A stretch of DNA of 64,000 nucleotides from Planctomycetota bacterium (GTDB lineage Bacteria; Planctomycetota; Phycisphaerae; Phycisphaerales; UBA5793): assembly GCA_963205185.1 (NCBI GenBank), contig CAUJHZ010000076.1:205157-269156 (forward strand), read 5' to 3'. Positions 31,850 to 35,249 of this stretch are shown piece by piece. How positions within the stretch are numbered: position 1 is the stretch's first letter; each line of letters begins with the position of its first letter. The translations under genes and the position numbers were made by a program. The notes beneath the pieces are model-generated. The model had not been told where the DNA came from, did not search any database, and worked only from the letters and a program-made list of their open reading frames with translations.

Positions 31850-32026
31850 GGCCCATTGTATTCGCTGCCGCGCGCCCGCCATCACCCGCTGGGCCGGCGC
31901 GGCGAAGATTACCGGTCGTCGCGGACGATTTTCTTCACTTCGGGGCGCCGTTCCCCCTCTGAGGCTCGCGTCGCGCGTTAGAATGTGCCAACGCGTTCGG
32001 ACCACTATCACGAGAGGGAGAGAATC

Positions 32027-33064
32027 ATGCAGATCTGCAATGTCAATCGCTTCGCGCTCGCCGCAACCGCCATCATGCTGGGCGCTGCGGGCAGCGCCAT
32101 GGGCCAGCTGAGCGAGTACTACCTGCACTCGGGCGACCAGGACACATTCACCGTCGTGCAGAACGGCACGATCCTGCGCCAGTGGAATCTGGCCGCGGGT
32201 ACCGATCGCTACCAGTACCCGATGGTCGTTCGAGACACGGTTCGCACCATGGGCGCGGATGTGGGCGACATCGGCGCCGACTACAGCCTTATGGGAGTCG
32301 ATCTCGGTCCGCGCTACACGCACCCCGAAGGCACATCGCGCTGCTGGGACGGCGCGACCGACGGCACGCACAACTATTCCATCGACACCGCCGGCGTGGT
32401 CTGGCAGTTCGACGGCGAATGGACCAATCCGCTGCGCCTCTTCACCGCCGGCGGCATCGGCGCATTGGCATACGACACCGAAAACGACACCCTCTGGGTG
32501 GGCACGTTCTCGGGCTCGAATCTCACGCAGTACGACCTGAGCGGGAACATCATCAGTTCATTCACCACCGGCCACACCAAGAACATGGCCGTCGCGATCG
32601 ACCCCGCCGACGGCACGCTGTGGATTCACGATCGAAATCGCCAGGGGACGCTCGAACAGTGGTCGCGCAGCGGCTCTTTGCTCAACACCGTCGTCGTGCC
32701 GGGCCTTGAAACGCAGAACGCGCTCGCGGGCGAATTCCAGTTCGGCGGCGGCGGTTATTCGCTCTCGCTCAGCGGCCAGTGCCCCGGCACCATCACCGTT
32801 ACCTGGAACAACGCGCCGCCGCAGACGCAACAGGGCATTGTCTTTGCACGCAACACCGGCTCGTTCGTGATTCCCAACGGCCCGTGCCAGGGAACGCAAC
32901 TGGGCCTGGGGACGAATCAACTGCAACTCGTCAACACCGTCAGCACGGGCAACGGCTCGGGCAGCGTCAACGGCCAGGCCGGAACGGGCGCCTGCGGCGG
33001 CTACCTGCAGTTGGTTGCAGTGGATAGTCCATGCCAGACGACCAACGTGGCTCAGTTGCCGTAA
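32027..33064 (+). CDS. Secreted protein with C-terminal Ig-like module
   Basis: About 345 residues. MQICNVNRFALAATAIMLGAAGSAMG is a signal peptide. The middle (GGIGALAYDTENDTLWVGTF, TKNMAVAIDPADGTLWIHDR) looks like a few blades of a beta-propeller. The last ~102 residues (YSLSLSGQCPGTITVTWNN to the end) match the C-terminal module of the FG-GAP protein at 38712-41336, with shared GxCPGTITxT, IPxGPCxGTxLGL and GAC positions. The ATG at 32027 has GAGGGAGAG upstream. A terminator follows. It sits on the plus strand between minus-strand recR and ybaB. Function unknown; probably surface-exposed. Confidence 0.78.
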   Translation: MQICNVNRFALAATAIMLGAAGSAMGQLSEYYLHSGDQDTFTVVQNGTILRQWNLAAGTDRYQYPMVVRDTVRTMGADVGDIGADYSLMGVDLGPRYTHPEGTSRCWDGATDGTHNYSIDTAGVVWQFDGEWTNPLRLFTAGGIGALAYDTENDTLWVGTFSGSNLTQYDLSGNIISSFTTGHTKNMAVAIDPADGTLWIHDRNRQGTLEQWSRSGSLLNTVVVPGLETQNALAGEFQFGGGGYSLSLSGQCPGTITVTWNNAPPQTQQGIVFARNTGSFVIPNGPCQGTQLGLGTNQLQLVNTVSTGNGSGSVNGQAGTGACGGYLQLVAVDSPCQTTNVAQLP

Positions 33065-33569: not shown

Positions 33570-35249
33570 TCATTTGGATCTGCGCGGCACCGGCTTCACA
33601 TCGACGATGCGGGCGTCGAGCAGTTCCATTGCCTTGCGCACGATCGGAATCTGCGCCGCCTCGGCGAATTCCGACGATGACGGCAAGGCAGTGCCGGTCG
33701 TCTTGCCATTCGCCGGCGCCGCGGCGCCGGCGATGAGTTCGAGGCGCACGGGCCGGCCCAGCGCCGCTGCAAAAATCTTCTCGACGGCGCCGAGGCACGT
33801 CCGCGCGTACGCGAGCAGCGATGCATCCTCCAGCACGAGGCTGATTGTCGGCCCATCCAGGCGCTGGTCCCAACTCAGCGCATCGACCACCGGGCCGAGG
33901 CGCGCGTTCCGATGCGCTTCTTCGACCACGTGCCGCCACACCTGCTCAGGATCGACATCCACGCGAGCCGCGGCCGGCTGCGATAATTCCGGTTCCGCGG
34001 ACGCCGGCGCGGCGGCGCTCTTCGCAGCCGTCGCAGCCGCCAGTTCGCTCAGTTTCGGCGCTGGTTCAGCGCGTTGTGGACTTTTTTTTTGAGCGGCGCC
34101 CGCGCTGCCAGCGCCGCTGAGACGCCCGTCACCAGCCGGAGCGCCCTTGAGCAGCGCCGCGGCATCGGCGAACTTCTCGCTCAGCGCCAGCCGAATCACG
34201 GCTGCATCGAGCAGGGCCCGGCCCGTCACGCTCGATTTGATCGACCGCTGCACATTTTCGAGTAGCGCGATCATGTACACGAGGCTCGGCGCGTCGAACC
34301 GCCCCGCCTGCGCTGCGATTTCCTGCCGTTCGTCGTCGGCCAGTTCGAGCAGTTCGCTCTCCACGCCGCATGCGCAGGCAAGCATGAGCAGCCGCAGCCG
34401 GTCGATGACAATCTCGATGAACTGATCGGGCGACACGCCGCGATTGAGCATCTCGTTCATCTGCTGCAGCGCCGCAGCGGGTTGCCCGTCGGCCACGGCC
34501 TCGACGAACTGGTGCACCAGCGCCTGGTCCGGCAGGCCCAGCGTCTCGGCGAGCATCTCGACGGTGATGGTCTTCTCGCCCTCGGAGAGCAGTCGATCGA
34601 GCAGGCTCAGCGCATCGCGCATCGAGCCGTGCCCCAGGCGCGCCACCTGCAGCACCAGCCGCTCATCGGCCTTGACCTTCTCCCGCTTGAGTACATCGCG
34701 CAGGTGTTCGGCGATTCGCTTGGTCGGGATCATCCGGAAGTCGAACCGCTGGCAGCGCGACTGGATCGTCGCCGGCACCTTGTGCGGCTCGGTGGTGCAC
34801 AGGATGAACTTCACATGCGACGGCGGCTCCTCCATGGTCTTGAGCAGCGCGTTAAACGCCTCGCGCGTGAGCATGTGCACTTCGTCGATGATGTAGATTT
34901 TGTAAGGGCAGCGGTTGGGCCGGTAGATGCTGTTGGCGATGAGATCGCGGGCCTCATCCACGCCGCGGTTCGAAGCGCCGTCAATCTCGATGACGTCGAT
35001 GTCGCCGCCCTGCATGATCGCTTTGCCGATCGCCTCGGCGTCGGTGAGTTCGGGCGTGACGTTGAGCGCCTTGGCGAAGATGCGGGCCATCGAAGTCTTG
35101 CCCACCCCGCGCGTGCCGGTGAAGAGATAGGCGTGGGCGACGCGGTCGGACTCGATCGCCCGCTTGAGCGTGCGCGCGATCGCCTCCTGCCCGATGACTT
35201 CATCAAAGTCCTGGGATCGATAACGGCGAGCGAGAACGGTGTAAGCCAT
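33570..35249 (-). CDS. dnaX: DNA polymerase III subunit tau/gamma with likely programmed frameshift
   Basis: 559 residues (tau form). AAA+ motifs are clear: GTRGVGKTSMARIFAKALN (Walker A), YKIYIIDEVHMLTREAFNAL (Walker B), CTTEPHKVPATIQSRCQRFDF (sensor 1 and arginine finger region). After ~360 residues comes a Pro/Ala-rich linker and a C-terminal tau domain. Between Walker A and DVIEIDGASNRGVDEARDL the four zinc-binding cysteines of most DnaX proteins are missing; the segment reads NVTPELTDAEAIGKAIMQGG. Codons 387-389 (CAA AAA AAA) contain an A9 run with a nearby -1 stop, so a gamma form of about 394 residues is likely. It is the clamp-loader ATPase of the replisome. Confidence 0.95.
   Translation of the reverse strand: MAYTVLARRYRSQDFDEVIGQEAIARTLKRAIESDRVAHAYLFTGTRGVGKTSMARIFAKALNVTPELTDAEAIGKAIMQGGDIDVIEIDGASNRGVDEARDLIANSIYRPNRCPYKIYIIDEVHMLTREAFNALLKTMEEPPSHVKFILCTTEPHKVPATIQSRCQRFDFRMIPTKRIAEHLRDVLKREKVKADERLVLQVARLGHGSMRDALSLLDRLLSEGEKTITVEMLAETLGLPDQALVHQFVEAVADGQPAAALQQMNEMLNRGVSPDQFIEIVIDRLRLLMLACACGVESELLELADDERQEIAAQAGRFDAPSLVYMIALLENVQRSIKSSVTGRALLDAAVIRLALSEKFADAAALLKGAPAGDGRLSGAGSAGAAQKKSPQRAEPAPKLSELAAATAAKSAAAPASAEPELSQPAAARVDVDPEQVWRHVVEEAHRNARLGPVVDALSWDQRLDGPTISLVLEDASLLAYARTCLGAVEKIFAAALGRPVRLELIAGAAAPANGKTTGTALPSSSEFAEAAQIPIVRKAMELLDARIVDVKPVPRRSK
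34058..34090 (-). promoter_or_regulatory. Programmed frameshift or slippage site in dnaX
   Basis: On the coding strand nine A residues (34090-34082) are followed by G. A -1 shift reads AAG TCC ACA ACG CGC TGA, ending after five codons at 34066. Nine bases after the A run, GCGCTG (34072-34067) can pair with CAGCGC (34063-34058) around AAC; the -1 stop lies in this hairpin. The A9 run matches the Thermus dnaX slippage signal, and E. coli uses AAAAAAG plus a stem. Output would be tau (559) and gamma (~394). Confidence 0.8.

Follow-up and report, generated by a model that had tools for sequence, protein, structure and literature searches.

A candidate Thermus-type slippage site in a Phycisphaerales dnaX gene and apparent exchange of polymerase slippage for ribosomal frameshifting within the order

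We propose that RNA polymerase slips in a programmed, Thermus-like manner on a run of nine A residues in the dnaX gene of a planctomycete, a reading to which we assign a probability of roughly 0.8. With this conserved site, a single gene very probably yields both a long protein (tau) and a short one (gamma). The gene lies in the window, by which we mean the whole 64,000-nucleotide stretch of DNA analyzed here, positions 205157-269156 of contig C76. Comparison with related genomes suggests that one order probably kept its gamma/tau switch while the mechanism behind it was swapped repeatedly. Polymerase slippage at A9/A10 would have given way several times to -1 ribosomal frameshifting (at A7, GGGAAAA or CCCAAAA, with a hairpin), and the tau frame would have moved among 0, -1 and +1. 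Repeated swapping of the mechanism would mean that selection preserves the two-product output and not the device.

The host genome is a 4.55 Mb draft whose relatives are Phycisphaerales planctomycetes, and the window has a GC content of 65%. Its DnaX matched E. coli gamma/tau in the PDB with an E-value of ~1e-68. Domain III of gamma/tau (Pfam) corresponds to DnaX residues 230-366, and the clamp-loader core stops at residue 366. The dnaX gene is followed by ybaB and, further along, by a recR ORF, with an unrelated plus-strand ORF in between. This ORF (31985-33064, 359 aa, without a Pfam match) sits on the opposite strand between recR and ybaB-dnaX.

Table 1. Coordinates of dnaX and of the features around its A run, numbered from the first letter of the window.
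Feature	Position	Strand	Remarks
dnaX CDS	33570..35249	minus	unshifted frame gives tau (559 aa); TIGR02397 dnaX_nterm, E 1.4e-117
GC-rich potential hairpin abutting the 5' side of A9	34091..34118	minus	weak candidate nascent-RNA stimulator
A9 slip site	34082..34090	minus	CAA AAA AAA AGT (Q387 K388 K389 S390); 21 codons past domain III
-1-frame TGA	34066..34068	minus	closes predicted 394-aa gamma (...QKKKSTTR); kept in 5/5 congeners
6-bp stem GCGCTG/CAGCGC	34058..34072	minus	starts nine bases past A9; probably non-functional
+1-frame TGA	34049..34051	minus	closes predicted second gamma form, 399 aa, ...QKKVHNALNQRRN; kept in 5/5 congeners

Around the site, the minus (coding) strand reads CTC-AAAAAAAAA-GTCCACAAC-GCGCTG-AAC-CAGCGC. 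A first-pass annotation of this DNA had reported an A9 run in dnaX, five -1-frame codons ending in a stop, and a stem of 6 bp nine bases further on, and we confirmed all three on the minus strand. Its prediction of a gamma of ~394 residues also agrees with our results: past A9, the -1 frame runs AAG TCC ACA ACG CGC TGA, that is, five codons and then a conserved stop. The 394-aa end can be reached by a -1 ribosomal slip or by one additional A in the mRNA. The TGA that closes the +1 frame had been missed. The 399-aa end is reached if one A is lost, and the same end with one more K if two A's are gained. Tau needs no recoding in this gene, since the 0 frame is open to its full length. The run, the two closing stops, their conservation and their position just past domain III can be read directly from the sequence. 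For the window gene taken alone, the presence of both stops is not far from chance (0.083 × 0.256 under the null of the stop comparison below).

Within the genus, the run is unbroken in all five species (A9 in four, an in-frame A10 in one); the refuting condition named in the first-pass annotation, synonymous breaks of the run in orthologs, thus does not hold there. In the A10 congener, the G of the Ser codon has become an A. The run is retained within an otherwise variable linker and across a genus whose proteins are as little as 74% identical, and no other A run in the five dnaX genes is longer than four. Both stops are likewise found in all five congeners, the -1 TGA ~4-5 codons and the +1 TGA ~9-10 codons past the run. 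The 0-frame codons that overlap the -1 TGA vary (GCT GAA, GCT GAC, GGT GAC, GGT GAG; residues AE, AE, AD, GD and GE in the five congeners) and the TGA itself is constant. The +1 TGA shares bases with the codons of a conserved Leu-Ser pair (CTG/TTG AGC), and constraint on the protein might likewise preserve it.

Long runs of this kind are rare in the host. A pattern search of the whole 4.55 Mb genome returned only three A/T runs of at least 9, and the one in dnaX is the sole one shown to lie inside an identified gene. The second (L201:1500-1509) is a T10 preceded by a GCCGCGG/CCGCGGC hairpin, ~40 bases past a ferredoxin-like (NuoI-type) ORF, and is likely an intrinsic terminator. The third (L198:1500-1508) is a T9 within DNA of 55% GC. 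Under the codon usage of the window, in which AAA accounts for 24% of the codons for Lys and CAA for 16% of those for Gln, the probability of spelling Q-K-K-S as CAA AAA AAA AGT is 5e-4.

We fetched and oriented 116 dnaX genes from the Phycisphaerales; in 115 of them the same junction carries a slip site (the exception is G101). The longest open frame proved a misleading guide to tau in these GC-rich genes and was abandoned; the tau frame was assigned instead by an HMM built from the tau C-termini of genes with an open 0 frame. Among the 65 genes with A9-12, tau lies in frame 0 in 46, in -1 in 16 and in +1 in two, with one unassigned. Among the 40 with A7-8, it lies in -1 in 31 and in frame 0 in eight, again with one unassigned. 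The remaining ten genes carry GGGAAAA or CCCAAAA (tau in -1 in four, unassigned in six); the search for these was restricted to the heptamer phase and to a 0-frame stop close by, so that the two features are not independent evidence there. No phase or stop condition was imposed in the search for A7 runs. Many of the relatives are draft metagenome assemblies in which long-read homopolymer lengths may be off by one. For the main classes, agreement between sister genomes argues against run-length error, less so for G005 and G051, the isolated cases of tau in +1.

The two kinds of site differ in several respects. Run lengths in the order are bimodal, at 7 (38 genes) or 9-10 (63 genes), with A8 in only two. 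All 38 A7 runs are in the X_XXY_YYZ phase, as expected because tandem tRNA slippage requires it, and the A9-12 runs are spread over all three phases (11/41/13). In the A9-12 class, the farther of the two non-tau stops comes at a median of 4 codons and within 13 codons in 60 of 64 genes. In the heptamer class, where the gamma frame alone closes early, the corresponding figures are 57 codons and 5 of 43 (p 3e-16). Under the null, a stop falls within 13 codons with probability 0.21 in the -1 frame and 0.31 in the +1 frame. This contrast in closure survived thinning to <70% identity (24/26 vs 2/23, p 1e-9). Downstream hairpins have a mean z of -1.86 in the heptamer class, starting ~6 nt past the heptamer, vs -0.18 in the A9-12 class (p 5e-6), which gave no downstream hairpin signal either inside or outside the order. 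A Shine-Dalgarno (SD)-like motif is modestly enriched in the heptamer class (30/50 vs ~20 expected). The A7, GGGAAAA and CCCAAAA sites thus carry the marks expected of -1 ribosomal frameshifting, and the A9-12 sites those expected of transcriptional slippage, as in Thermus.

One GGGAAAA genus, g3 (L030/G011, L118/G006, L135/G015, L142/G019, L153/G061, L197/G073), has GCC TGA in frame 0 after the heptamer and, in most of the six loci, an SD-like GGAG ~10-14 nt upstream. Its -1 frame continues, with no convincing match to the tau C-terminal HMM; a short tau, or one with a diverged tail, might explain this.

The first-pass annotation had called the mechanism at the window site open. Because both non-tau frames are closed, the codon phase is free in the class and no stimulator is conserved, we infer transcriptional slippage. 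RNA polymerase would slip on the A9 template to yield dnaX mRNAs with 9, 8, 10, 11 or more A's. Those with 9 or 9+3n would encode full-length tau. With other counts, ribosomes would enter the -1 or +1 frame and terminate at the nearby TGA, making one of the two gamma forms, a clamp-loader subunit with domains I-III and without the tau tail. Slippage itself, its level, its origin in the polymerase and the role of gamma are all parts of this proposal that we infer. The hairpin abutting the 5' side of the run could act as a terminator-like stimulator of slippage, a weak suggestion: low-energy folds occur there in all five congeners, but over the A9-12 class in only 19 of 65 genes vs 12.7 expected.

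Any run of nine A's contains an in-phase A_AAA_AAA and is compatible with some ribosomal -1 shift. A9 could serve both mechanisms, and polymerase slippage and a ribosomal -1 slip might act on the same run, each yielding a real share of gamma. We regard this as rather unlikely because no ribosomal stimulator is conserved. An arrangement in the style of E. coli dnaX, with a tandem tRNA-Lys slip at A_AAA_AAA(G) and a downstream stem leading to the 394-aa gamma, would account for the in-phase A_AAA_AAA, the stem nine bases downstream and the -1 stop in all five congeners. That stem, however, folds at -9.1 kcal/mol with a z of -1.4, and 17 of 200 shuffles fold equally well, which is within chance. 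It is weakened or lost in the 93%-identical sister G003 (z +0.3 to +0.9) and absent in G001 (z +0.8). We accordingly dropped it as a functional E. coli-like element, since it is unconserved even in the closest relative, and regard it as most likely an accident of GC-rich sequence. The first-pass annotation had described the site as a hybrid of a Thermus-type run and an E. coli-like stem; the run stands and the stem as a working part does not.

Other observations also make purely ribosomal frameshifting improbable. No conserved SD-like element lies at the appropriate distance: ~10 nt upstream there is none in the window gene (G000), G003 or G001, and a GGAGG-like sequence occurs in G002 and G004 only. 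An Rfam search of the gene gave no frameshift family above threshold and left the dnaX frameshift element unmatched; the weak matches, one of them to a viral frameshift element in another part of the gene, were all below gathering. The +1 frame is closed too, and in E. coli A_AAA_AAA is reported to be far less slippery than A_AAA_AAG (PMC5009743). A single further genus was found in the window's family; in its genome G005 (L019), the C-terminal HMM places tau after A9 in the +1 frame (E 1.2e-12), out of reach of a ribosomal slip by -1. The 0 frame of G005 is closed after 7 codons and its -1 frame after 1, in a two-contig, possibly long-read assembly whose run length could be off.

The run might instead be incidental, kept for the Lys-Lys that it encodes in the linker and without functional slippage. 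We consider this very improbable, since AAA and CAA are minority codons and yet the run is intact throughout the genus; class-wide, it occurs in all three phases with different encoded residues, and the closing stops around it are far above the null. Homopolymer assembly error would be conceivable for a draft assembly, but it is hardly credible when five species, each with its own genome, show A9 (four) or an in-frame A10 (one), all with an open 0 frame.

Transcriptional slippage at A9/A10 is probably also the ancestral state. A tree of the DnaX N-terminus, built from 112 genes by a quick ML search and weak at many forks, gave parsimony minima of 11 class changes and 20 tau-frame changes, against shuffled means of 36 and 37; slip-site states thus follow descent but change often. 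In the Phycisphaerae outside the order, the run is exactly A9 or A10 in 68 of 80 dnaX genes and A8 in one; ten genes, notably in families f8 and f19, have none, and one has an unrelated motif. Since the wider class is so nearly uniform, the ribosomal heptamers of the Phycisphaerales are probably derived, a direction read from this distribution. Near relatives seem to differ in mechanism, for example G117 (A7 with hairpin) and G096 (A10).

Two families, f8 and f19 (L234, L248, L259, L273, L287, L295, L302, L304), gave no A run or heptamer and in most cases have a short tau tail; they have apparently lost the slip site. Among other Phycisphaerae, L241 (G183), L257 (G252) and L290 (G135) have A10 with tau in +1, and G183 and G252, which belong to the same family, are concordant.

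The importance of gamma and the relation between the two dnaX recoding mechanisms have been debated from a few model species. Close pairs such as G117/G096 offer natural tests of how a polymerase-level device turns into a ribosome-level one. The signature described here (both frames closed, codon phase free, no hairpin) could separate the two mechanisms from sequence. A literature search of partial coverage found no report on dnaX of Phycisphaerales.

The E. coli and Thermus systems are both classical. In E. coli dnaX, a -1 ribosomal frameshift takes place at A_AAA_AAG with a downstream stem-loop and an SD-like sequence ~10 nt upstream. The window site has the same gene, the same predicted products and a -1 stop, and its A7 relatives have the heptamer, the hairpin and some SD-like signal. 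It differs in having A_AAA_AAA and no in-phase A_AAA_AAG, and in that neither a stem nor an SD-like element is conserved.

Thermus-type slippage produces an mRNA population with a variable number of A's, and tau and gamma at about 1:1. The dnaX gene of Thermus thermophilus has an A9 with stops in both other frames and uses transcriptional slippage (Larsen et al. 2000, as described in PMC1088944 and PMC5009743). The window gene shares the A9 past the core, tau in the unshifted frame and early stops in both others. It belongs to another phylum, its slippage is a prediction, one congener has A10, and its close relatives moved the tau frame or replaced the run with a ribosomal heptamer.

Antonov et al. 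2013 (PMC3711429) list 17 two-ORF dnaX genes from 12 genera in which tau needs recoding, 12 of them with poly-A, of which nine are A10; for such genes, with A7-A10, they suggested transcriptional realignment. Their survey included two planctomycete species, and in the parts of it consulted we found no description of Phycisphaerales. The A10 relatives within the order are of this two-ORF type, with the 0 frame ending in gamma and tau in -1 (16 A9-12 genes). The window gene differs in having tau in frame 0, and its close relatives include both polarities, a +1 polarity and heptamers. That a single nucleotide can reverse the roles was pointed out by Atkins et al. (PMC5009743). The window site joins the known Thermus kind, and the repeated switching of mechanism is the new part.
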